In this document: piece after piece, positions 5,544 through 37,171 of the stretch
Layout: each line of letters opens with the position of its first letter
Position numbering within the stretch: position 1 is the stretch's first letter
NCBI RefSeq assembly: GCF_014854695.1
Contig: NZ_CP027557.1
Span: 3,224,001 to 3,288,000 of the forward strand
Direction of reading: 5' to 3'
Source of the DNA: Rhodococcus rhodochrous
GTDB lineage: Bacteria; Actinomycetota; Actinomycetes; Mycobacteriales; Mycobacteriaceae
Length of the DNA: 64,000 nucleotides
Notes under the pieces: generated by a model
The model's input: only the letters and a program-made list of their open reading frames with translations
Told to the model about the DNA's origin: nothing
The model's database searches: none
Translations under genes and position numbers: made by a program

Positions 5544-7823
5544 TCATGCCGACCGTGCCGCGTCGAGGGCCCGGCAGGTCGGGGTCGGACGGCCGGCGTA
5601 CTCGTCGACGGGACCCTCGTACAGCACGGTTCCGCCGTGCCGTCCCGGTCCCGGTCCGAGGTCGACGATGTGGTCGGCGTGCCGGATCACGTCGAGGTGG
5701 TGCTCGATGACGACGACGGTGTGCCCTCGGTCGACGAGGTCGTCGAAGACGTGCAGGAGGGTGCCGACGTCCTCGGCGTGCAGGCCGGTGGTCGGCTCGT
5801 CGAGGACGTAGAGGGTCGGCGTCTTCGCTCGTCCGAGTTCCTTGGCGATCTTCACCCGTTGACACTCGCCACCGGAGAGCGTGTCGAGCGACTGTCCGAG
5901 GCGGAGGTAGTCGAGGCCCACCCCGGCGAGCGCACTCAGTCGACGCGCGATCTCCGGGTGCGGCAGTTCCTCGAGGGCGCGACCGACGGTGAGGTCGTCG
6001 ACATCGGCGATCGACAGGCCGTTCACGGTGTGCCCGAGCACCTCGGCGGTGAACCGGCGGCCGTGGCAGGTGTCGCAGACGACCTCGCGTCCGTCCATGA
6101 AGGCGAGGTCGATGTACACGACACCGGCCCCCGTGCAGGTCGGGCACGCACCCGCCGAGTTCGCGCTGAACAGGCTCGCCGGCACACCGCTGTGTTCGGC
6201 GAACATCCGCCGCAGGGTGGGTGCGATTCCGGTGTAGGTGATCGGGGTGGAGCGGCGATTGGCGCTCACCGGCCGCTGGTCGATCACCGTGGCGTCGTAC
6301 TGATCGACGAGTTCGGCTGCGAGACTGGACTTTCCCGACCCAGCGACGCCGGTGAACACGGTGAGCACGCCGGTGGGGATCCGCACCGTCAGGTCGCGGA
6401 GGTTGTTGCGACACGCATCGGCGATCGTGAGACGACCGGTCGCCTCGCGGGCGGGGTGACCGCGGCCGATGGCGCGCCGCAGCGATCGGCCGGTGGGAGT
6501 GTCGGCCGTTCGGAGCCGGTCGAAAGTGCCCTGGAAGACGAGGCGACCACCGGACGAGCCCGCACCGGGACCGATCTCGATCACCTGGTCGGCCCGGGCC
6601 ATCACGCTCGGGTCGTGTTCGACGACGAGGACGGTGTTGCCGCTGTCGCGGAGCCGTTCGAGGAGGTCGATCATCGTCTCCACGTCGGCTGGATGCAGAC
6701 CGACCGTCGGTTCGTCGACGACATAGGTCATCTCCGTCAGGCTCGACCCGAGGTGCCGGACCAACTTGATCCGTTGCGATTCGCCGCCCGAGAGCGTGGT
6801 GGTCGCCCGGGCGAGCGCGAGATAGCCGAGGCCGATCGTCACCATCGCCTCGAGACGGCCCACCAGTGCGGACACCACAGGTGCGGCGCGCGAGTCGTCG
6901 ATCGTGCGCACGAATTCGAGCAGCTCGATGATCTCGAGGCGGGACAGCTCCCCGATCGTGCGGCCGCGAAGGGTGACCGCCCGCGCGGCCGCGTTCAGCC
7001 GTTCTCCGGCGCAGTCCGGGCACGTCTCGGCGCGGGTGAAACGTCGGATGACGTCCTGTTTGCGTTCGGAGAGGTTGTCGGAGGTGTGCAGGTGGATGCG
7101 CTCGAATCTCTCGACGACGCCCTCGTATCCGTCCGGCGGTTTGTGGCCCAGCGCCGCTGCGGCCTCGCCGCCGTAGAGCAGTGCCTCCCGCTCGGCGGGC
7201 TTCCACTCGCGCAGGTGTGTGTCCGCGTCGAAGGAACCGATGTCGGCGTACTGGGAGTACCAGTACCCACCGTTGCCGAAGCCGGGCACCAGGATCGCGC
7301 CCTCGGCGAGGGACCTGTCGAGATCGAGGAACCGCTCGACGGCACTGACGACGATCTCGCCGAGCCCGGAGCAGGTCGGGCACATCCCGGTGGGGTCGTT
7401 GAACGAGAAGCGGTTCGACTCCCCGAGGACGGGTGTGCCCACCCGGGAATACAGCAGCCGCAGATAGGTCCAGGTGTCGGTGATGGTGCCGACCGTCGAG
7501 CGGGCGTTGCCGCCGAGGCGGCGCTGGTCGACGACGATCACCGGCGTCAGACCGTCGATGTGGTCGACGTCGGGTCGTGTCCACTTCGGCAACCGATTGC
7601 GCGTGAACGGCGGGTACGTCTCGTTGAGCTGGTAGCCGGCCTCCGCGGCGATCGTGTCGAAGACGAGCGACGACTTCCCGGAGCCGGACACCCCGACGAT
7701 CACCACGAGCCGGTTGCGCGGAACGGTCAGATCGACGTCGGCCAGGTTGTGGGTGCGGGCGCGACGGATCGTGATGGCGCGGCCTCGCACTGCCGCCTCG
7801 GTGGTCGTGACGGTGGTGGTCAT
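5544..7823 (-). CDS. Short UvrA-like ABC ATPase (DrrC/UvrA2 type)
   Basis: Encodes 759 aa, about 200 shorter than genuine UvrA. Both ABC modules are intact: Walker A GVSGSGKS (44-51) and GVAGSGKSS, signature loops TTLSGGESQR and DTLSGGECQR, Walker B VVDEPTVGLHP and VLDEPTTGLHAED. Two zinc-type cysteine modules remain (CPTCSG; CPTCTG with CDTCHGRRF). The shortfall fits the paralogue class that lacks the UvrB-binding domain and is linked to tolerance of DNA-intercalating drugs, with DrrC of anthracycline producers as the named relative. It is divergent from a WYL regulator, and the pair sits inside the histidine locus. A -10-like TAGCGT lies 7 nt before the ATG. DNA binding or repair is inferred from family only. 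Confidence 0.88.
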   Translation of the reverse strand: MTTTVTTTEAAVRGRAITIRRARTHNLADVDLTVPRNRLVVIVGVSGSGKSSLVFDTIAAEAGYQLNETYPPFTRNRLPKWTRPDVDHIDGLTPVIVVDQRRLGGNARSTVGTITDTWTYLRLLYSRVGTPVLGESNRFSFNDPTGMCPTCSGLGEIVVSAVERFLDLDRSLAEGAILVPGFGNGGYWYSQYADIGSFDADTHLREWKPAEREALLYGGEAAAALGHKPPDGYEGVVERFERIHLHTSDNLSERKQDVIRRFTRAETCPDCAGERLNAAARAVTLRGRTIGELSRLEIIELLEFVRTIDDSRAAPVVSALVGRLEAMVTIGLGYLALARATTTLSGGESQRIKLVRHLGSSLTEMTYVVDEPTVGLHPADVETMIDLLERLRDSGNTVLVVEHDPSVMARADQVIEIGPGAGSSGGRLVFQGTFDRLRTADTPTGRSLRRAIGRGHPAREATGRLTIADACRNNLRDLTVRIPTGVLTVFTGVAGSGKSSLAAELVDQYDATVIDQRPVSANRRSTPITYTGIAPTLRRMFAEHSGVPASLFSANSAGACPTCTGAGVVYIDLAFMDGREVVCDTCHGRRFTAEVLGHTVNGLSIADVDDLTVGRALEELPHPEIARRLSALAGVGLDYLRLGQSLDTLSGGECQRVKIAKELGRAKTPTLYVLDEPTTGLHAEDVGTLLHVFDDLVDRGHTVVVIEHHLDVIRHADHIVDLGPGPGRHGGTVLYEGPVDEYAGRPTPTCRALDAARSA

Positions 7824-7838
7824 GGATTCGACGCTACG

Positions 7839-7871
7839 ACCGGTTGCGGCCGGATCCTGACCGCAACCGGT
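7839..7871. promoter_or_regulatory. Perfect 11-bp inverted repeat between uvrA-like and WYL genes
   Basis: Arms ACCGGTTGCGG (7839-7849) and CCGCAACCGGT (7861-7871) are perfectly complementary with an 11-bp spacer. The repeat fills the 62-nt divergent intergenic region and lies just upstream of the putative uvrA-like -10 (7831-7836). This is the expected operator of the adjacent WYL regulator, inferred from position and symmetry. Confidence 0.65.
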
Positions 7872-7885
7872 GGGAGGATGACGGC

Positions 7886-8872
7886 ATGGCGGACGTCACC
7901 GAGCGGATGCTCGCGTTGTTGTCGATCCTGCAGACCGGACGCGCGATCGGCGGGGACGAGCTGGCCCGGCGGCTGCAGGTGAGCCGCCGGACGCTCCGCC
8001 GCGACGTCGACCGGCTGCGCGGCTACGGATATCCCGTCGAAACCCGCTCCGGGCCCGGCGGTTTCTACCGTCTCGCGTCGGGACGTTCGATGCCGCCGCT
8101 GGTGCTCGACGACGACGAGGCCGTCGCGGTGCTGCTGGGGCTCGGCGCTCTCGCCGCGACCGGGCCGGCCGAAGGCGGACTGGACGACGCTGCCACCCGC
8201 GCCTACGGCAAGCTCGACCAGTTCCTGCCCGCGCGGCTGCGCCCGCGGGTCGCGGCCGTCCGCAGCGCGGTGGAGACGAGTGCGCTGCAGGCGCCCAGCG
8301 TGTCGGCGGAGCTGCTCGGCTCCGTGGCGGAGGCGATCGCGCGGTGCGACACGTTCACCTTCGACTACGTCGACGCGCAGGGCTCGCCGACCTCGCGCAG
8401 GGTCGAGCCGTACCGGCAGGTCCACCACCTGCTGCGGTGGTACCTCCTCGGATGGGACGTCGATCGCGAGGACTGGCGGGTCTTCCGCCTCGATCGTGTG
8501 CGCGACCTGCTCCGCACCGGCCGACGGTTCGCACCCCGCCGACTTCCCGCCGGGTCCGCCACGGAATACCTGCGGCAAGGACTCCGGCAGGGGCGGACAC
8601 CGGTGCACCTGGACGTGGCGGCCTCGGCCACGCACGTCGCCGACGCGCTGAAGTACCAGGACGCCGAGATCCGGCCGACGGGTGACGGCCGGACCGAGGT
8701 GCACCTCGCGGTCGAGTCGTGGCAGTGGCTCGTCCTCACGCTCGCCACCCTCGACGCCGACGTCCGGATGCGCGCGGACCCGGAGATCGTCCGGGCCTGC
8801 GCGGTGTTCGCCGATCGTCTGCGCGCGGCGGCGCAGGACGTCGTCGTCCCCTCCGAGGAGCGCGCGAGGTGA
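7886..8872 (+). CDS. WYL-domain transcriptional regulator (YafY/DeoR-like)
   Basis: Encodes 328 aa. An N-terminal winged helix (ARRLQVSRRTLRRDVDRL, about residues 28-45) is followed by a WYL domain with the motif RWYLLGWD and a C-terminal WCX-like region. WYL regulators sense small ligands or single-stranded nucleic acid and often control DNA-damage or phage-defence genes. ATG 7886 is chosen because GGGAGG lies 8 nt upstream; the in-frame upstream codon falls inside the inverted repeat. It is divergent from the UvrA-like ATPase and probably controls it and itself through that repeat. Confidence 0.88.
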   Translation: MADVTERMLALLSILQTGRAIGGDELARRLQVSRRTLRRDVDRLRGYGYPVETRSGPGGFYRLASGRSMPPLVLDDDEAVAVLLGLGALAATGPAEGGLDDAATRAYGKLDQFLPARLRPRVAAVRSAVETSALQAPSVSAELLGSVAEAIARCDTFTFDYVDAQGSPTSRRVEPYRQVHHLLRWYLLGWDVDREDWRVFRLDRVRDLLRTGRRFAPRRLPAGSATEYLRQGLRQGRTPVHLDVAASATHVADALKYQDAEIRPTGDGRTEVHLAVESWQWLVLTLATLDADVRMRADPEIVRACAVFADRLRAAAQDVVVPSEERAR

Positions 8873-27865: not shown

Positions 27866-28066
27866 TCAGCGCTGTTCGCTCATCAGCGAATCGACGGTCC
27901 CGTGGCGCGAACACCGTGCCCACCACCCGTCCGGCGCGATCTGGACGATCATCCGCCGACCGCACCGAGCGCAGAACCGTGGCGGTTCGAGTCCGAGTTG
28001 CACTGCTGCGGAATGGGTCCGGACCGTCCCGTCGACGATCGCTTCGCCGGTGAACGGATCGAACAT
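27866..28066 (-). CDS. bsaP: Biotin synthase auxiliary protein (BsaP-like)
   Basis: Encodes 66 aa. The Cys/His pattern C32-x2-C35 ... C52-x2-H55 (FCARCGRRM and ARCSRHG) could hold an iron-sulfur cluster or zinc. It begins [12 protein letters not shown] and lies immediately 3' of bioB with a 1-nt overlap of stop and start. Actinobacterial BioB is reported to need such a small partner, and this location (Rv1590 in M. tuberculosis, from memory) is diagnostic. Role: support of BioB turnover, inferred from family and context. Confidence 0.82.
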
Positions 28067-29079
28067 CAGATCGTCTCGCCGAGGGCCTTGATCGGCATCT
28101 TCAGTTCGCCGAGCAGATCGAGGTCGGTCTCCGCCGGCCGGCCGAGCGTGGTGAGATAGTTGCCGACGATGACGGCGTTGATCCCGCCGAGGATCCCCTT
28201 TTGTGCGCCGAGATCGCCGAGCGTGATCTCGCGGCCGCCGGCGAACCGGAGGATGGTGCGCGGCAACGCCAATCGGAAGGCCGCCACGGCCTTGAGCGCC
28301 TCGGTGGCGGGCAGCACCTCGAGGTCACCGAAAGGGGTGCCGGGGCGCGGGTTGAGGAAGTTGAGCGGCACCTCGTCGGGCTCGAGCGCCGCGAGGTCGG
28401 CTGCGAATTCGGCTCGCTGCTCGACGGTTTCACCCATCCCGAGGATGCCTCCGCAGCACACCTCCATACCTGCCTCGCGGACCATGCGCAGCGTCTCGAA
28501 GCGCTCCTCCCAGGTGTGGGTGGTGACGACCTTCGGGAAGTGCGAGCGGGCGGTCTCGAGGTTGTGGTTGTAGCGGTGCACGCCCATCGCGACGAGCCGG
28601 TCGACCTGGTCCTGGGTGAGCATGCCGAGCGAGCACGCGATCTGGATGTCGACCTCGTTGCGGATCGCCTCGATACCGGCCGCGACCTGCGAGAGGAGGC
28701 GCTCGTCGGGTCCGCGTACGGCCGCGACGATGCAGAACTCGGTGGCTCCGGTCTTGGCGGTCTGCTTCGCGGCCTCGACGAGCGACGGGATGTCGAGCCG
28801 GGCGGCACGCACCGGCGAGGCGAACAGGCCGGACTGCGAGCAGAAGTGGCAGTCCTCGGGGCAGCCGCCGGTCTTGAGGCTGATGATCCCCTCGACCTCG
28901 ACCTCCGGTCCGCACCATGCCATGCGCACGTCATGGGCGACCGCCAGCAGGTCGTCGATGCGGTCGTCCGGCAGCTGCAGGACCTCGAGGGTCTGGTCAC
29001 GGTCGAAGCCGATTCCGCGACCCAGCACCTGGTCGCGAGCGATTTCGAGGATGTCGGTGCGGGCGGGCGCCTGGGTCAC
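28066..29079 (-). CDS. bioB: Biotin synthase
   Basis: Encodes 337 aa from GTG 29077-29079. This start has AGGAGA 7 nt upstream and gives MTQAPARTD, like mycobacterial BioB; an ATG further upstream at 29112 falls inside the BioQ box and is rejected. It is a radical-SAM enzyme that inserts sulfur into dethiobiotin. Visible are the CPEDCHFC motif (CX3CX2C) for the SAM cluster, [18 protein letters not shown] and the C-terminal [12 protein letters not shown]. Controlled by two tandem BioQ-like boxes and co-transcribed with bsaP. Confidence 0.97.
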
Positions 29080-29104
29080 TGCCGTCTCCTGGGGTGGCGA
29101 GAAC

Positions 29105-29162
29105 TTGAACATCGTTCAATTGAACAGCGTTCAGGTTAGGGCGAAGCGTCCGATAGTGTCAA
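29105..29162. promoter_or_regulatory. Tandem BioQ boxes and bioB promoter
   Basis: Box 1 TTGAAC-atc-GTTCAA is at 29105-29119 and box 2 TTGAAC-agc-GTTCAG at 29120-29134. They adjoin and match the actinobacterial BioQ consensus TGAACnnnGTTCA as I remember it. On the minus strand TTGACA (29157-29162), 18 bp, TAACCT (29133-29138) gives a near-consensus bioB promoter with box 2 at the -10/start site. On the plus strand TAGTGT (29154-29159) may serve bioQ, with box 2 near its -35. Confidence 0.8.
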
Positions 29163-29240: not shown

Positions 29241-29867
29241 GTGCAGTTGCGACGCGGCGACGTCCTCGACGGCGCCATGGCGATCCTCGACGAGTACGGG
29301 CTCGGCGACCTGACGATGCGCAAGCTCGCGTCGTCGCTCGGCGTCCAGCCCGGCGCGTTGTACTGGCACTTCCCGAACAAGCAGACCCTGCTCGGCGCCA
29401 TGGCCGACCGCATCCTCGACGGTGTCGACGAACCGCCCGCGAGCGACGCCTGGGACGAGGCCCTTTCAGAGCTCGCGCACCGTTTCCGTGCCGCACTGCT
29501 CGCCCACCGCGACGGCGCCGAACTCGTCGCCTCGAGCTACGCCTCCCGGCTGACCACCTCGTCGGCCCGCGACGCCTTCGTCGGCACCGCGGAACGCGCG
29601 GGTCTGTCGCGGGCGTACGCCGAACTCACCGGCTACGCGCTGTTGCACTACGTGCTCGGCCACACCGTCGACGAGCAGTCCCGCGCGCAGCTCGAGGAAC
29701 TCGGCGCGCTCACGCGCGCACCGCTGTCCCCCGAGGTCGCGACCGAGCAGCCGGCCGAGGCCGACGACGACCTGCTCGACGGCGACCCCGCCGTCCGGTT
29801 CGAATTCGGTCTGCGGTTGTTCGTCGACGGCATCCGCGCACGTCTGGAGACCCGTGCGACATCCTGA
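29241..29867 (+). CDS. bioQ: TetR-family biotin repressor BioQ
   Basis: Encodes 208 aa from GTG 29241. The TetR HTH is clear (LTMRKLASSLGVQPGALYWH, about 24-43), and the C-terminal domain (FRAALLAHRDGAELVASSYA; YALLHYVLGHTVDEQ) is of the TetR_C type found in BioQ. It is divergent from bioB across two BioQ-like boxes. BioQ represses biotin genes in actinobacteria that lack a BirA DNA-binding domain. The third box at 45768-45786 suggests that it also controls bioF-bioD. Confidence 0.85.
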   Translation: MQLRRGDVLDGAMAILDEYGLGDLTMRKLASSLGVQPGALYWHFPNKQTLLGAMADRILDGVDEPPASDAWDEALSELAHRFRAALLAHRDGAELVASSYASRLTTSSARDAFVGTAERAGLSRAYAELTGYALLHYVLGHTVDEQSRAQLEELGALTRAPLSPEVATEQPAEADDDLLDGDPAVRFEFGLRLFVDGIRARLETRATS

Positions 29868-29909: not shown

Positions 29910-31199
29910 GTGACCGCCCCCTGGACCCTCCAGCAGATCAACGCCGTCGCGCCCGATCCGTCCTCGATGACGGCTGCGCGCGGCGTCGCCTCCGCATGGC
30001 TCGAGACCGGTCACGACATCACCGCCCTGTGGGGACTGTGCCGCGGACGCGGCACCACGCCGTACCGCACGGCGATCGACCCGAGCGCTCCCGCCTACAC
30101 GTGCACGTGCCCGAGCCGGAAACTGCCCTGCAAGCACGCCCTGTCACTGCTCGTGCGCTGGTCCGAGGGTGCCGTGCCGGCCGCGCAGGCACCCGACTTC
30201 GTCACCGGATGGCTCGCCGCCCGCGTCGCGTCCACCACACTTCCCGCCCCGGTGGACGAGCCGGTCAAGGCGCCCGATCCGGTGACCGCCCAGCGCCGCG
30301 CCGAGCGGGTCGCGGCAGGACTCGACGACCTCGACCGCTGGCTGACTGACCGCATCCGGCACGGCCTCGGGGCGGTGGATCACGGCTACGACACCTACGA
30401 GACGATCGCCGCCCGCATGGTCGACGCCCAGGCTCCCGGCGCGGCGTCGGCACTGCGCACCCTGGCCACCGTCGTGAACGACGAAACCGATTGGCCTGCC
30501 AGGCTGCTCGCCGAGTACGCGCGCCTGCACCTGATGACCGTGGCGTACCGACAGCGCGACGATCTGCCGAGGCCGCTCCTGCGTTCGCTGCAGACCCATC
30601 TCGGTTTCAGCACCCGTAGCGAGGAGGTCCGCGCCGAACCGGCTGTGCGCGACCGCTGGCAGGTCCTCGCCGTGCGCGTCACCGAGGAGAGCCGGATGTT
30701 CACCCGCAAGACGTGGCTTCGGGGGCGGTCGAGCGGACGCTGGGCGATCCTGCTCGACTTCGCTCACGGAACAGCACGTTTCACCACGCCGCTCCCCTTC
30801 CCCGGTTCGCTGGTCGACGCCGATCTGCACTTCTACCCCGGCGCGGCCCCACTGCGAGCCGTGCTCGGCCGACAGCACGGGGAGACGGAGCCGTTCACGA
30901 CCCTGCCCGCCACCGGACTCGACGCTGCGCTGGACGAATACGCCCGCATGCGCGGAGCAGATCCGTGGTTGCGCACCTGGCCCGTCCTGCTCGACGCGGT
31001 CACCCCCACCGACAGCGAGGACGGCTGGTACGTCGTCGACCCGTCCGGACGGGCACTGCCGCTGGCCGGTGACGACGACAGCCGCTGGCGGCTGCACGCC
31101 GTCGCGGGAGGTCGTCCCGTCACGGTCTGCGGCGACTGGGACGGAACCGCTCTCGCTCCCGTCTCACTGTTCACCGAAGGACAGGTGATGACCTGGTGA
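29910..31199 (+). CDS. SWIM zinc-finger protein, first gene of MoxR/VWA cluster
   Basis: Encodes 429 aa from GTG 29910. The SWIM motif CxCx6CxH is complete: C65, C67, C74 and H76 in YTCTCPSRKLPCKHALSLL. The rest is mostly helical, then a beta-rich C-terminal part with no family I recognise. SWIM domains bind DNA or proteins. A -10-like TACCTT ends 8 nt before the GTG, so the mRNA may be leaderless. GTGA overlap with the next gene starts a chain of five overlapped genes ending with the VWA gene. Confidence 0.85.
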   Translation: MTAPWTLQQINAVAPDPSSMTAARGVASAWLETGHDITALWGLCRGRGTTPYRTAIDPSAPAYTCTCPSRKLPCKHALSLLVRWSEGAVPAAQAPDFVTGWLAARVASTTLPAPVDEPVKAPDPVTAQRRAERVAAGLDDLDRWLTDRIRHGLGAVDHGYDTYETIAARMVDAQAPGAASALRTLATVVNDETDWPARLLAEYARLHLMTVAYRQRDDLPRPLLRSLQTHLGFSTRSEEVRAEPAVRDRWQVLAVRVTEESRMFTRKTWLRGRSSGRWAILLDFAHGTARFTTPLPFPGSLVDADLHFYPGAAPLRAVLGRQHGETEPFTTLPATGLDAALDEYARMRGADPWLRTWPVLLDAVTPTDSEDGWYVVDPSGRALPLAGDDDSRWRLHAVAGGRPVTVCGDWDGTALAPVSLFTEGQVMTW

Positions 31200-32596
31200 C
31201 CGCCCTGCCCGAATCGCTTACGACCGCAGCACTTCTCGGCACGGCACGCTCCGCGCCGGAGTTCGACACGCTGCACACGGCCGACGCTGCGCGCGAACTC
31301 GCCGGAGACCCCGCCGCGACGCTGCTCGCCGCCGCCGCACTGGAGACGACCTTCCTCACCGCCGCGACCGTGCCCGTGGTCCGCGAACTGCCGTCGCCGG
31401 CCCCGGACGACGACCGTCCCGTCCTCCCCGGCGCGGCTGCCGAACGCCTGCGCGCGCTGCTCGCCGTCCGCTCCCCGCTGCTCGACGAGTGGTTCGAGGT
31501 GGCGGCCCGATTCCGCGCGTCGCACGACATCGTGGTCGACCTGCTGACGGTCGCGACCACCGACGCGGTGCACCGCGACCGGCTGGTCGCGCTCACCGGT
31601 TCCCGCGGACGCTGGGTGGCAGCGCGCAACCCGGAATGGGCCGATCTGCTGCCGCCCGACCCGCTCGACGACACGCCCTGGCACGCCGGTCCGCCCGCCC
31701 GGCTACGCCGATGGTTCGAGGCGCTGCGCGCGCACGACCCGGCCGCGGCGACGGCGACACTCGCGGCGTCGTGGGGTGCGCAGACCGCGGCCCAGCGGGC
31801 CGAGCTCGTCGCCCTGCTCGCGGTCGGTCTCGGTCCGCACGACGAAGACCTGCTCGAACGCGCCCTCGACGACCGCAGCCGCAAGGTCCGTGCCGTGGCA
31901 CTCGACCTTCTCCCCCGCCTGCCGGACTCCACGTTCGCGCGGCGCATGGCCGAGCGGGTGCGGCAGTGGTTGCTCGTCGACGGCTCGACCGTTACGCTCG
32001 CTGTTCCCGACCGGCCGGACGAGGGCGCACTCCGCGACGGTCTCGTCGACGATCCGGCCCGCGATCTGCTGGTGGCGGCGGTCGCGGCGGCTCCGCTGTC
32101 GATGTGGCGCGAGCACGCCGGAGACACGGTGCTACCGGAGTTCGACGTCGACGACACCGTCCGCACGGCACTGACGGAGGGGTGGGGCCGCGCGGCGGTC
32201 CGGCAGCGCGACGGCGACTGGGCTGCGGCGTTGCTACGACGCGACGGCACCGTCGACGCGGCGGTCGCGCAGGTCGTGCCCCGCGACATCCTGCTCACGC
32301 ACCTGCGCGATGTGTCGCCGTCCGCGGTTCTCGACGACACGCTGCTCGCCGCGCTCCCGGCGCCGTGGCCGCGCGATGTCGCCGAGAAGGTGCTCACCGC
32401 GCTGTACACGAAGCTGACGACCACCCGCGTGGTGCGCGACGTGCTGACGTTGCTCGCCCACCGGGCACCCTTCGAGTTGGCCGACCTGCTGGCCGACGCC
32501 GCGAACCGCACCGACGATCTCGGTCGCCTGCACCTGTTCGCGAGCGCAGCCGACACCCTGACCCTCCGCAAGACGATCCACGAGGAGCTGAGTTGA
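31196..32596 (+). CDS. DUF5691 protein, MoxR/VWA cluster
   Basis: Encodes 466 aa from GTG 31196 overlapping the previous stop. The chain is Ala/Leu/Asp-rich and helical, with repeat-like units (e.g. RSPLLDEWFEVAARFR; LLERALDDRSRKVRAVALDLLPRLP), which suggests a HEAT-like scaffold. I assign DUF5691 from its N-terminus (ESLTTAALLGTARSAPEF) and its fixed place between SWIM and MoxR genes. No catalytic motif is visible. It is likely an adaptor for the ATPase/VWA machinery. Confidence 0.75.
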   Translation: MTALPESLTTAALLGTARSAPEFDTLHTADAARELAGDPAATLLAAAALETTFLTAATVPVVRELPSPAPDDDRPVLPGAAAERLRALLAVRSPLLDEWFEVAARFRASHDIVVDLLTVATTDAVHRDRLVALTGSRGRWVAARNPEWADLLPPDPLDDTPWHAGPPARLRRWFEALRAHDPAAATATLAASWGAQTAAQRAELVALLAVGLGPHDEDLLERALDDRSRKVRAVALDLLPRLPDSTFARRMAERVRQWLLVDGSTVTLAVPDRPDEGALRDGLVDDPARDLLVAAVAAAPLSMWREHAGDTVLPEFDVDDTVRTALTEGWGRAAVRQRDGDWAAALLRRDGTVDAAVAQVVPRDILLTHLRDVSPSAVLDDTLLAALPAPWPRDVAEKVLTALYTKLTTTRVVRDVLTLLAHRAPFELADLLADAANRTDDLGRLHLFASAADTLTLRKTIHEELS

Positions 32597-33819
32597 CCGA
32601 CTTCGAGTCGACCCCTGCAGTTGTCGGCACCGATGAGGCCGAGGCGTCCGATACCGGCACGTTCGAGACCGGCGGGCCCGACGAATCCGGCGCATCCGAC
32701 ACCGCCGGGCCCGACGTATCCGACACTGCCGGGTCCGGCACCGACCTGCTGCGCCCGCACGCCGAACAGCAGTACGCGGACGAACTCGCAGCACTCGCGC
32801 GACTCGACGACCGGCCGCGCCCGCCGTCGTGGCAGCTGTCGCCGTGGGCCGTGGTGACCTACCTGCTCGGCGGCGAACTGTCCGACGGCACCGTCATCAC
32901 CCCGAAGTACGTCGGCCCGCGCCGATTGATGGAGGTCGCCGTCGCGACCCTGGCAACCGACCGGGCACTGCTGCTGCTCGGTGTGCCGGGTACCGCGAAG
33001 ACCTGGGTGTCGGAGCATCTCGCCGCCGCGATCAGCGGTTCGTCGACCCGGCTCGTACAGGGAACGGCGGGCACGACCGAAGAGTCGGTGCGGTACGGCT
33101 GGAACTACGCGCGGCTGCTCGCCGAAGGGCCGAGCGCCGCCGCGCTGGTCGCCTCCCCGGTCATGACCGCGATGCGCGACGGCGCCGTGGCCCGTATCGA
33201 GGAACTCACCCGCATCCCCGCCGACGTGCAGGACGCGCTGATCACCATCCTGTCGGAAAAGATGCTTCCCGTCCCCGAACTCGGCATCGAGGTGCAGGCG
33301 ACGAAGGGGTTCAACGTCATTGCCACCGCCAACGACCGCGACCGCGGGGTCAACGACCTGTCGTCCGCGCTGCGTCGACGGTTCAACACCGTCGTGTTGC
33401 CGTTGCCGGCGAGCGAGGAGGACGAGGTCTCGATCGTCACCCGCCGCGTCGAACAACTCGGCGCCGCACTCGAACTGCCGGCCGTGCCCGCGGCCGCGGA
33501 GGAGATCCGCCGCGTCGTCACGGTGTTCCGGGAGCTGCGCAGCGGTGTCACGACCGATGGCCGGACCAAGCTGAAGTCCCCGTCGGGCACGTTGTCCACC
33601 GCCGAGGCGATCTCGGTGGTCACGGGCGGTCTGGCCCTGTCAGCGCACTTCGGCGACGGGGTGCTGCGGCCCTCCGACGTCGCGGCCGGAATCCTCGGAT
33701 CGGTGGTCAAGGACCCCGTCTCCGATCGCGTGGTCTGGAACGAATATCTCGAGGCCGTCGTCCGGGAACGCGGCGACTGGACCGATTTCTACCGGGCGTG
33801 CCGGGAGATCACCGGGTGA
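32593..33819 (+). CDS. MoxR-type AAA+ ATPase
   Basis: Encodes 408 aa from TTG 32593, inside the previous stop (TTGA), with GAGGAGC 10 nt upstream. Walker A is GVPGTAKT (130-137), acidic Walker B residues are in ARIEELTR (E203/E204), sensor-1 Asn is in ATANDRDRG (N247), and arginines follow in SSALRRRF. The first 50 residues are an acidic, Gly/Asp/Thr-rich low-complexity leader with DTAGPDVSDTAGSGTD. MoxR ATPases act with VWA proteins as chaperones or metal inserters. The VWA partner is encoded two genes later. Confidence 0.9.
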   Translation: MTDFESTPAVVGTDEAEASDTGTFETGGPDESGASDTAGPDVSDTAGSGTDLLRPHAEQQYADELAALARLDDRPRPPSWQLSPWAVVTYLLGGELSDGTVITPKYVGPRRLMEVAVATLATDRALLLLGVPGTAKTWVSEHLAAAISGSSTRLVQGTAGTTEESVRYGWNYARLLAEGPSAAALVASPVMTAMRDGAVARIEELTRIPADVQDALITILSEKMLPVPELGIEVQATKGFNVIATANDRDRGVNDLSSALRRRFNTVVLPLPASEEDEVSIVTRRVEQLGAALELPAVPAAAEEIRRVVTVFRELRSGVTTDGRTKLKSPSGTLSTAEAISVVTGGLALSAHFGDGVLRPSDVAAGILGSVVKDPVSDRVVWNEYLEAVVRERGDWTDFYRACREITG

Positions 33820-36017
33820 CCGACGTTCTCTTCGACCGCGCGGCTGCGCCCGCGGAGATCCGGGTCTTCGGAATCCGGCACCACGGGCCGGGTTCGGCGC
33901 GCGCGGTCCTGCAGGCACTCGCGGAGTTCGAACCCGACACCGTCCTCATCGAGGGTCCGTCGGACGCCGATCCGGTGCTCGCGCTCGCCGCGGCCGACGA
34001 CATGGTTCCGCCGGTCGCATTGCTGGCCTACGCCCGCGACGAACCGGCGCAGGCCGCGTTCTGGCCGTTCGCGGCCTTCTCGCCCGAGTGGCAGGCCCTG
34101 CGGTGGGCGTACCTGCACGACGCCGACGTGCGGTTCTGCGATCTTCCGGCGGCGATGTCGCTCGCCGCCGAACGCGAGGTCGGCGACCGCGCGACCGACG
34201 ATCTGCTCGGCATGCTCGCCCGCGCCGGCGGCTACGCCGATTTCGAGCAGTGGTGGGATGCGGTGGTCGAGCACGGCACCGCACAGGCCTTCGACGAGAT
34301 CACCGACGCGATGCGGGCGCTGCGCGAAGATGTCGGGATCGACGACCACACCGCGCGACGCGAGGCGCACATGCGGCAGGTGCTGCGCGCGACGGTCAAG
34401 GCCGGGGCCCGCGCGATCGCCGTGGTGTGCGGGGCGATGCACGCGCCCGCACTGACCGGCCGACTCGGACCGGCCGCCCCCGACGCGCGTCTGCTCAAGG
34501 GCATGCCCAAGGTCAAGACCACTCTCACGTGGGTGCCGTGGAGCCACTCCCGGTTGTCGCTGTCGTCGGGCTACGGCGCCGGCATCACCTCGCCAGGCTG
34601 GTACCACCACCTGTTCACACAGCCCACGGACACGACCGCACGCTGGTTCACCCGCGTGGCCCGTGTCCTGCGCAAGGAGGATCTGCCCGTCTCGAGCGCC
34701 CACGTCATCGAGGCGACGCGCCTCGCCGACACGCTCGCGGCACTGCGCGGTCGCGCGGTGGCCGGACTCGACGAGGTCGTCGAAGCGACCCGATCGGTGC
34801 TGTGCGACGGCGACGACGTCCTGCTCGACCTCGTCACACGGCGGCTCGTCGTCGGCGAGGCACTCGGTTCGGTCTCCGAGGACACCCCCACCGTCCCGCT
34901 CGACACCGACCTGCAGCGGAATGCGAAGTCGTTGCGTCTCAAGCGGTCCGCCGAAGCGAAGAACCTCGATCTGGACCTGCGCCGCGAGATCGACGTCGCG
35001 CGGTCGCGACTGCTGCACCGCCTGGCGCTGCTCGGGATCGACTGGGGCACGCCCACGGAGAGCGAGGTGCGCTCGACCGGCACGTTCCGCGAGACCTGGA
35101 CGCTGCGGTGGGAACCCGAGTTGTCGGTGGCGATCGTCGAGGCGTCCCGGTGGGGCACGACGGTGGAATCCGCGGCGGGTGCCACGGTGGGCGACCGTGC
35201 CGCACGCTCCGGGATCGCGCTCGCCGACCTCACCGAACTCCTCGAACGGGCGTTGCTCGCCGACCTGCGGACCACGATCCCGTCGCTGGTGACGGCGATC
35301 GATGCGGCGGCCGCTCTCGATCACGATGTGCTGCACCTGATGAGCGCACTGCCGACCCTCGTGCGCACCGTCCGGTACGGCGATGTGCGAGGCACCGATC
35401 TGTCCTCCCTGGAACACGTCTGCGACGCCCTCCTCGCGCGGGTGTGCGCCGGTCTCCCGGCGGCGGTCACCGGCCTCGACCACGACGCCGCCGATGCGCT
35501 GCGCACCGCGATCGACGATGTGCACCTCGCTCTCGCACTGCGCGAGGACCCGAGCGCGACCGGTCGATGGCTCGACACACTGACGTCGGTGAGCGAGCGC
35601 GACGACGTCGACGGGCTGCTCGTCGGCCGCACCACCCGGATGCTGCGCGACACCGGCCGACTCGGCGAACACGACGCGGCCGTGCGGGTCGCGCGAGCGT
35701 TGTCGGTGGGGTCACCCGCACCCGCGAAGGCGCGCTGGATCGACGGTTTCCTCGGCGGGGGCGGGCTCCTGCTCGTCCACGACAGCGCACTGTTCGACCT
35801 CGTCGACGAATGGATCAGCGGCCTCACCGACGACGATTTCGTCGACGTCCTACCCGTCCTCCGACGCACCTTCGGGTCGTTCGCCTTCGGTGAGCGACGC
35901 CTGCTCGGACAGACGGTGCGGGGCGAACGCACCCGCGGCACGGAGGCACCGCCGGCCGTGGACCGCGGCCGGATCGCCCTGACCGCCACCGCGTCGATTC
36001 TGGGAGTGTCTGCATGA
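33816..36017 (+). CDS. DUF5682 protein with TIKI/TraB-like N-terminal motifs
   Basis: Encodes 733 aa from GTG 33816 overlapping the MoxR stop. The N-terminal about 250 residues carry a motif series: RHHGPGSAR (H22, H23), LIEGPSD (E46), RREAHMRQVL (H185) and VCGAMHAPAL (H209). That order of His, Glu, and a second G-x-x-H resembles TIKI/TraB/EreA-like hydrolases, so a metal-dependent hydrolase is possible. The remainder is helical, and a late region has FLGGGGLLLVHDSALFDLVDEWI. It is a fixed neighbour of MoxR and VWA genes. Its function is unknown. Confidence 0.8.
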   Translation: MTDVLFDRAAAPAEIRVFGIRHHGPGSARAVLQALAEFEPDTVLIEGPSDADPVLALAAADDMVPPVALLAYARDEPAQAAFWPFAAFSPEWQALRWAYLHDADVRFCDLPAAMSLAAEREVGDRATDDLLGMLARAGGYADFEQWWDAVVEHGTAQAFDEITDAMRALREDVGIDDHTARREAHMRQVLRATVKAGARAIAVVCGAMHAPALTGRLGPAAPDARLLKGMPKVKTTLTWVPWSHSRLSLSSGYGAGITSPGWYHHLFTQPTDTTARWFTRVARVLRKEDLPVSSAHVIEATRLADTLAALRGRAVAGLDEVVEATRSVLCDGDDVLLDLVTRRLVVGEALGSVSEDTPTVPLDTDLQRNAKSLRLKRSAEAKNLDLDLRREIDVARSRLLHRLALLGIDWGTPTESEVRSTGTFRETWTLRWEPELSVAIVEASRWGTTVESAAGATVGDRAARSGIALADLTELLERALLADLRTTIPSLVTAIDAAAALDHDVLHLMSALPTLVRTVRYGDVRGTDLSSLEHVCDALLARVCAGLPAAVTGLDHDAADALRTAIDDVHLALALREDPSATGRWLDTLTSVSERDDVDGLLVGRTTRMLRDTGRLGEHDAAVRVARALSVGSPAPAKARWIDGFLGGGGLLLVHDSALFDLVDEWISGLTDDDFVDVLPVLRRTFGSFAFGERRLLGQTVRGERTRGTEAPPAVDRGRIALTATASILGVSA

Positions 36018-37171
36018 CAACCGAATCCGGCGACACCGAACGCCTGCGCCGCTGGCGGCTCGCACTCGGCGAGGCCGCGGAGGACTCCACGGGATCCCTG
36101 TCCTCGGCCGACGACAATGCGATGGACGCCGCGCTCGCCGCGCTGTACGACAGCGCGCCCGGCGACGGCACGGCACCGCGCACCGCAGGTCTCGGCGCAT
36201 CCGCACCCAGGGTGGCGCGCTGGCTCGGCGACATCCGCACCTACTTCCCGACATCCGTCGTCCAGGTGATGCAGCGCGACGCCGTGGATCGGCTCGGGTT
36301 GACCCGGCTGCTCCTCGAACCCGAGATGCTCGGGGCCGTCGAACCGGACGTGCACCTCGTGGGCACGTTGCTGAGCCTGAACCGCGTGATGCCGGAGACC
36401 ACCAAGGCGACGGCACGGACGGTCGTCGAGAAGGTCGTGCGCGAGATCGAGGCTCGCATCGCGCAGCACACCCGCACCGCCGTCACGGGTGCGCTCGACC
36501 GGTCGTCGCGGACGTCGAATCCGAAACTGCGCGACATCGACTGGGATCGCACGATCCGCGCGAACCTGGCCCACTACCTGCCGGAGCATCGCACGGTGGT
36601 GCCCGAGAAGCTGGTGGGCTACGGGCGCCGCTCCCAGGCGGTGAAGCGCGACGTGGTGCTCGCGGTGGACCAGTCCGGGTCGATGGCGTCGAGCGTGGTC
36701 TACGCGTCGGTGTTCGCGGCGGTCCTGGCGTCGATGCGGGCACTGCGGACCTCGCTGGTCGTCTTCGACACCGCGGTGGTGGATCTGACCGACAAGCTCG
36801 CCGATCCGGTGGACGTGCTGTTCGGCACCCAGCTCGGCGGCGGCACCGACATCAATCGGGCGATCGCCTACAGCAGGTCGCTCATCACGCGCCCGGCCGA
36901 TTCGCTGTTCGTGCTCATCTCGGATCTGTACGAGGGCGGCATCCGCGCCGAGATGCTCTCGCGCATCCGGGAGATGCTCGCCGCGGGTGTGCAGGTCGTG
37001 GTGTTGCTGGCGCTGTCCGACGACGGGGCGCCGTCCTTCGACCGCGACAACGCTGCGGCGCTCGCCGAACTCGGGGTTCCCGCCTTCGCGTGCACGCCCG
37101 ACCGGTTCCCGGAACTGCTCGCCGTCGCGCTCGAGCGGGGTGACGTCGGACGCTGGTCGCAGTCCGGGTGA
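36014..37171 (+). CDS. VWA-domain protein, partner of MoxR ATPase
   Basis: Encodes 385 aa. ATG 36014 overlaps the DUF5682 stop (ATGA). The N-terminal half is helical. A von Willebrand A domain at about 212-380 has a complete MIDAS: DQSGS (219-223), Thr278 in GGGTD, and Asp304 in LISDLYEGG. No signal peptide or transmembrane segment is seen, so it acts in the cytoplasm. It ends the five-gene unit and would be the metal-dependent binding partner remodelled by the MoxR ATPase. Confidence 0.9.
   Translation: MTTESGDTERLRRWRLALGEAAEDSTGSLSSADDNAMDAALAALYDSAPGDGTAPRTAGLGASAPRVARWLGDIRTYFPTSVVQVMQRDAVDRLGLTRLLLEPEMLGAVEPDVHLVGTLLSLNRVMPETTKATARTVVEKVVREIEARIAQHTRTAVTGALDRSSRTSNPKLRDIDWDRTIRANLAHYLPEHRTVVPEKLVGYGRRSQAVKRDVVLAVDQSGSMASSVVYASVFAAVLASMRALRTSLVVFDTAVVDLTDKLADPVDVLFGTQLGGGTDINRAIAYSRSLITRPADSLFVLISDLYEGGIRAEMLSRIREMLAAGVQVVVLLALSDDGAPSFDRDNAAALAELGVPAFACTPDRFPELLAVALERGDVGRWSQSG

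Follow-up and report, generated by a model that had tools for sequence, protein, structure and literature searches.

Five overlapping genes at positions 29910–37171, on the plus strand of a 64-kb stretch of Rhodococcus rhodochrous DNA (the window), encode a SWIM-finger protein, a DUF5691 protein, a MoxR AAA+ ATPase, a DUF5682 protein and a CoxE-type VWA protein. Comparative sequence evidence, namely conserved order, co-retention, co-loss and fusions, gives good support to the view that these genes form a dedicated multi-protein module. The cluster may represent the version, in actinobacteria, of a widely distributed ATP-driven module in which DUF5682 is a hydrolase remodelled or gated by the MoxR–VWA pair, a reading based on sequence comparison and predicted structures and held with about as much belief as doubt. 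The genes are as follows (lengths in amino acids, aa).

29910..31199, plus strand: SWIM-finger protein, 429 aa (Pfam SWIM 1.9e-5, above cut-off; alignment)
31196..32596, plus strand: DUF5691 protein, 466 aa, predicted HEAT/ARM-like repeat (Pfam 8.9e-91; predicted structure)
32593..33819, plus strand: MoxR AAA+ ATPase, YehL subfamily (AAA_5 2.6e-37; similarity to Escherichia coli YehL)
33816..36017, plus strand: DUF5682 protein, 733 aa, YehM relative (Pfam 2.4e-259; predicted TraB/TIKI-fold domain and helical-repeat arm)
36014..37171, plus strand: CoxE-type VWA protein, 385 aa, YehP relative (VWA_CoxE 5e-53)

An earlier sequence-only reading of this DNA had described these five reading frames, their coordinates and a stop-start overlap of 4 bases at each of the four junctions (GTGA, TTGA, GTGA and ATGA); all were confirmed in the sequence, and each of the five family names it gave is borne out by Pfam. 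In related loci the exact in-frame 4-base overlap is present at junctions 1 to 4 in 22 of 29, 57 of 63, 39 of 74 and 45 of 75 testable copies, respectively. Overlapping junctions of this kind support co-translation of the five genes.

A species collection was scanned with a DUF5682 alignment, and the 80 loci obtained were profiled for all five families; the loci were picked by likeness to the DUF5682 of the window and are therefore biased towards its architecture. Co-occurrence of all five genes, the search proposed in the sequence-only reading, was found in 69 of the 71 loci having enough flank. Nine of the 11 loci short of five families are truncated by contig ends; only two loci with sufficient flank are without the neighbours, and both are cyanobacterial. 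Gene order is constant apart from two rearrangements of the first two genes: inversion, with SWIM and DUF5691 on the opposite strand in 10 loci (Streptomyces and Kitasatospora), and single-frame fusion of SWIM to DUF5691 in 17 loci, mostly Nocardia, with another in Hymenobacter (L101). DUF5682 and VWA are fused in 11 loci, both domains being confirmed by Pfam in all four that were checked. The gene set is distributed over at least six phyla.

A phylum-wide sample of 246 Actinomycetota genomes contains 19 with DUF5682 and 17 with DUF5691 (above cut-off); both are present in 17, DUF5682 alone in 2 and DUF5691 alone in none (Fisher p 2e-24, uncorrected for kinship). DUF5682 is retained in 16 of 18 genomes of the window genus, and two Rhodococcus genomes (G003 and G015) are without DUF5682, DUF5691 and VWA alike. 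Most telling are two cyanobacteria (G291 and G355) that retain DUF5682, DUF5691 and VWA, the three families searched, on one large contig but unlinked, more than 0.9 Mb apart (in G291 at 4.30, 2.57 and 1.64 Mb, respectively). Co-retention without linkage indicates that function, beyond linkage, holds the parts together.

The putative working part of the module is DUF5682, whose closest match in the species collection is from R. gordoniae (97 % across the whole protein). Its AlphaFold2 model (48 sequences; predicted local distance difference test, pLDDT, 88; predicted template modelling score, pTM, 0.82) consists of an alpha/beta domain up to about residue 260 followed by a helical-repeat arm. 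The best structural match, over model residues 9–220, is chain E of 7w5z (VIA Z 10.0, root-mean-square deviation 4.6, 183 residues aligned), which is annotated as ‘TraB family protein’; a TraB subunit of that complex has also been described (PMC10060162). Independently of the structure, profile comparison of the domain with a TraB profile of only four sequences aligns the full domain (hhalign 94 %, P ~1e-7 to 1e-8); among the controls, neither the profiles of MoxR, VWA, SWIM and DUF5691 nor profiles that were reversed or column-shuffled (30 shuffles) exceed 0.7 %. Five pairs of DUF5682 and TraB motifs are brought together: GIRHHGPG/GTAHVS, LIEGP/VELD, CDLP/CDRP, RREAHM/ERDRYM and CGAMHAPAL/GAAHVPGI. 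Predicted structure and profile alignment assign the N-terminal domain of DUF5682, ~260 residues, to the TraB/TIKI superfamily; its positions are as follows.

33840..34595, plus strand: TraB/TIKI-superfamily domain, ~residues 9–260 (predicted structure, profile alignment)
33879..33884, plus strand: H22-H23, GIRHH motif, aligned with TraB GTAH (128/128 and 123/128)
33951..33953, plus strand: E46, LIEGP motif (128/128)
34140..34142, plus strand: D109, CDLP motif (128/128)
34359..34361, plus strand: R182, RREAHM motif, aligned with TraB ERDRYM (128/128)
34440..34442, plus strand: H209, CGAMHAPAL motif, aligned with TraB GAAHVPGI (128/128)

Counted over 128 DUF5682 homologues of all architectures, H22, E46, P84, S89, E91, D109, R182, G206 and H209 are invariant; H23 is found in 123 and G19 varies in 11. 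Two GxxH motifs with E and R between them are present, and both this motif order and the predicted fold are shared with the TraB/TIKI/PrgY and EreA/ChaN superfamily. Unlike those proteins, DUF5682 has an extra helical arm of ~450 residues, which resembles VPS35 and HEAT proteins (Z 8–9), and is associated with an AAA+ motor. Among members of the TIKI superfamily are enzymes with a His/Glu site whose peptidase or esterase activity is proven (PMC6254334). Given the TraB/TIKI fold and the invariant H-E-D-R-H set, DUF5682 is probably a hydrolase of peptidase or esterase type, and the fold, which the sequence-only reading had missed, makes it the likely working end, more than a mere client.

The Pfam TraB model gave no match to DUF5682, nor did a PDB sequence search with the protein. 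Several points weigh against a hydrolase driven by the MoxR–VWA pair. The structural match, with a Z of 10, is only moderate; Foldseek with the whole DUF5682 model returned nothing at E<0.001, with the TraB chain outside the best 50; and hhalign comparison with GumN and Ere branch profiles, whose alignments are small, was negative. At the position of the first Glu in the 2His/2Glu site of RRSP-type members, DUF5682 has no equivalent residue (GxxHH, not ExH), so its putative site would be of the TraB/TIKI kind. Protease activity has not been demonstrated for some TraB proteins, for example TRABD (PMC12329661), and gene overlaps and co-retention would suit any obligate complex.

The MoxR protein starts at a TTG codon, its initial ~50 residues are of low complexity, and the conserved region begins near residue 54. 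A Walker A motif at residues 130–137 and a VWA protein with a complete metal ion-dependent adhesion site (MIDAS) had been claimed from the sequence alone, and both are there: Walker A reads GVPGTAKT, and D219xS221xS223, T278 and D304 of the VWA protein are retained in alignments of relatives. Similar alignments show conservation of MoxR K136, E203/E204, N247 and R262/R263, which correspond to Walker A, Walker B, sensor 1 and the arginine finger.

32980..33003, plus strand: MoxR Walker A, GVPGTAKT, residues 130–137
33199–33204, plus strand: MoxR Walker B, E203/E204
36668–36682, 36845–36847 and 36923–36925, plus strand: VWA MIDAS

Over 365 aa, MoxR shares 40.5 % identity with E. coli YehL (E 5e-78, 236 bits), against scores of only 35 bits for the best NorQ in PDB and 45 bits for MadB. 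Pairwise scores together with the matching neighbours yehM and yehP place it in the YehL subfamily, one of seven named MoxR subfamilies (PMC3893208). The VWA protein is 39.9 % identical to E. coli YehP over 371 aa and scores 180 bits with VWA_CoxE (cut-off 26.4). MoxR–VWA pairs mature or remodel dedicated partner or client complexes (PMC3893208).

The E. coli genes yehL–yehM–yehP are thus homologues of MoxR, DUF5682 (29 % identity) and VWA in a shared order. A SWIM protein gene (yehQ) adjoins them, as in the window, but outside the SWIM finger the similarity of YehQ to the window SWIM protein is not significant; DUF5691 is absent, and a DUF4132 gene (yehI) is located upstream instead. Profile comparison of DUF5691 with DUF4132, and of the SWIM protein with YehQ, gave nothing convincing. 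The sequence-only reading had called the five-gene machine undescribed. This does not hold for three of the five genes, as the MoxR–DUF5682–VWA core is already known as yehLMP and YehL is a named subfamily; it does hold for function, none being reported for yehL, yehM or yehP in the literature searched, where a TraB-type partner was not found described either. No paper mentioning DUF5682 or DUF5691 by name was found in a search that covered few subscription papers.

Overall, DUF5682 occurs in five types of arrangement. Type A, SWIM–DUF5691–MoxR–DUF5682–VWA, is found in the window and also in Deinococcus, Hymenobacter, Methylosinus and Rhizobium plasmids. Type B, DUF4132–MoxR–DUF5682–VWA–YehQ, is found in E. 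coli, Iodobacter, Sinorhizobium and some actinobacteria and planctomycetes. Type C comprises MoxR and one joined DUF5682–VWA protein (the 11 fusion loci), type D is VWA–MoxR–DUF5682 with a divergent DUF5682, and type E is the scattered cyanobacterial form. In types A to D MoxR, VWA and DUF5682 are constant and the DUF5691 or DUF4132 arm is interchangeable. The dedicated machine proposed from the sequence therefore stands as a conserved module, but not with a fixed set of five, as the accessory arm is DUF5691 or DUF4132 by type. Likewise, neighbours varying freely between genomes, the observation that had been named as speaking against a machine, is not seen for the MoxR–DUF5682–VWA core, whereas the accessory arm does vary.

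Some individual loci depart from these patterns. The type D loci L136, L138, L140 and L170 are actinobacterial, their host genomes mostly carry another DUF5682 copy, and Cys replaces Arg in the GxRHH motif where it was read. On Methylosinus plasmid pOB3b3 (L102, 11166–12391) the VWA gene lies in three frames near insertion sequence (IS) elements and is a decaying copy. In Rhizobium sp. Kim5 (L097, 5081–6492) the SWIM protein is spread over two frames, with the finger separate from the C-terminal part, through either a frameshift or a real split. A 14-kb ‘Bacteriophage sp.’ record with MoxR–DUF5682–VWA (MT835988, L096) was discarded as very probably a mislabelled bacterial contig; it carries MgsA, DUF5717 and DUF5716.

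The SWIM protein consists of an N-terminal zinc finger and a conserved C-terminal part of ~300 residues, helical and then beta-rich. Its motif is located as follows.

30102..30137, plus strand: SWIM motif CTCPSRKLPCKH (C65, C67, C74 and H76), CxC...CxH, invariant in 26 aligned sequences

In 6 of 72 homologues (L023, L029, L032, L046, L060 and L064: four Nocardia, one Microbispora and one Actinoallomurus) no finger motif is left anywhere in the locus, while the rest of the protein is intact. These six losses suggest that the finger is accessory and that a nucleic-acid role is not core, which weakens the earlier suggestion of nucleic-acid recognition by SWIM. The predicted structure of a Nocardia SWIM–DUF5691 fusion (L026; pLDDT 92) gives repeat-protein matches with Z up to 9.5 for its DUF5691 portion (607–957), and on this model DUF5691 is a HEAT/ARM-like solenoid. 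The top Foldseek match of the same fusion (5920–8790) is the ZSWIM8–CUL3 ubiquitin ligase receptor 9rwz, a weak match (E 0.013, TM 0.13) that is a lead only and may reflect merely a finger plus helical repeats.

In the proposed mechanism the core would be formed by MoxR (YehL), DUF5682 (YehM) and the CoxE-type VWA protein (YehP), with DUF5682, a putative hydrolase domain followed by a helical-repeat arm, as the working end. A MoxR ring, coupled through VWA, would remodel or gate DUF5682, either activating it or feeding a client to it. The DUF5682–VWA fusions suggest that the VWA protein is positioned on DUF5682, and the SWIM–DUF5691 fusions suggest a single arm in which the SWIM protein and HEAT-repeat DUF5691 could jointly recruit the client; in the E. 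coli form, DUF4132 and YehQ would replace this arm. We infer catalysis by DUF5682, the direction of remodelling, the gating and the recruiting role of SWIM/DUF5691. More tentatively, the module could belong to a novel class of machine that uses ATP for proteolysis or hydrolysis, represented in E. coli K-12 by yehLMPQ, in which a MoxR–VWA motor, not an unfoldase of the Clp/Lon/FtsH type, drives or gates a TraB/TIKI-fold protease, and SWIM-HEAT or DUF4132 proteins serve as interchangeable client receptors.

RavA–ViaA and CoxD–CoxE likewise combine a MoxR ATPase with a VWA partner acting on a client complex, although they belong to other MoxR subfamilies and have the Nuo complex and CO dehydrogenase as clients; we know of no TraB partner of either. 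A maturation chaperone is considered rather unlikely. In that reading MoxR–VWA would serve a client enzyme by metal insertion or cofactor assembly, like CoxD/CoxE, and the TraB domain would bind a ligand in the manner of ChaN, with no hydrolysis. The VWA protein falls in the CoxE family, and the CuSMoO2 cluster of CO dehydrogenase requires CoxD (PMC3893208). The E. coli form adjoins molR-like genes, molR has been tied to molybdate use (Lee 1990, as cited in PMC8533742), and copper-evolved E. coli gained yehM mutations (PMC12409786). However, the set conserved in 69 loci includes no metalloenzyme gene, the natural fusions join VWA to DUF5682 itself, and in Deinococcus expression data molybdate-metabolism genes were unchanged with the DUF4132 gene (PMC8533742).

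An anti-phage conflict system with the TraB domain as effector is improbable. MoxR–vWA ternary systems, proposed as conflict systems (Kaur et al. 2020, PMC7159879), share with the cluster the MoxR + vWA pair and a third dedicated component, and plasmid copies exist, one beside type I restriction genes (L099) and one beside a PDDEXK protein (L101). The third component of those systems is, however, VMAP, iSTAND, FtsH or a beta-propeller, where the window has DUF5682; none of the four is among the five proteins (bpMoxR 21.8 bits, cut-off 27), and the survey of these systems lists no yeh genes and does not use the terms TraB, EreA or TIKI. PADLOC models gave no match, the nearest being IetA, in the P-loop, with E no better than 0.007. 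Variable effector domains are not seen either, the component set being constant in 69 loci and the DUF5682 residues invariant. Of 5426 E. coli genomes, 5284 (97 %) carry yehM, mostly as a single chromosomal copy, which disfavours an accessory defence role in that species; the retention of DUF5682 in the window genus and the window flanks, which hold biotin-synthase-like, TetR and transporter genes, also argue against defence. In jumbo phages a MoxR–vWA pair occurs with the vWA fused to a metallopeptidase (PMC7824862); a peptidase-type domain is there tied to MoxR and vWA, comparable to the DUF5682–VWA fusions, but the role proposed is virion assembly, unlike that of the window module.

An inactive TraB domain serving as scaffold in a structural complex built on helical-repeat arms is also quite improbable. 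The VPS35/HEAT-like arm of DUF5682 and the HEAT-like DUF5691 would fit a scaffold, and some TIKI-fold proteins are without catalytic residues and activity (PMC6254334), yet few residues of DUF5682 are as conserved as those of the putative site, at 128 of 128, which would be unusual in a dead enzyme. Chance neighbourhood of unrelated genes, of negligible probability, is rejected because order is kept across phyla and because of the fusions, co-loss and co-retention.

Two of the flanking genes keep their place in close relatives. A TetR-family regulator gene (29241–29867, plus strand) ends 42 bases upstream of the SWIM gene on the same strand. Its place beside the cluster is limited to close relatives within Rhodococcus (L016, L017, L018, L024 and L049), an adjacency that makes it a possible local regulator. 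The gene for a biotin-synthase-like radical SAM/BATS protein (28066–29112, minus strand) also adjoins the cluster, and this adjacency is conserved in close Rhodococcus relatives.

With a putative hydrolase domain in DUF5682, a near-universal E. coli gene set with no known function gains a testable putative active site in YehM/DUF5682, and an orphan MoxR subfamily (YehL) is connected with a probable enzyme. Research on TIKI-fold proteases concerns Wnt signalling and toxins; if the proposed reading is true, a bacterial TIKI-fold protease powered by an AAA+ motor would represent a novel arrangement.

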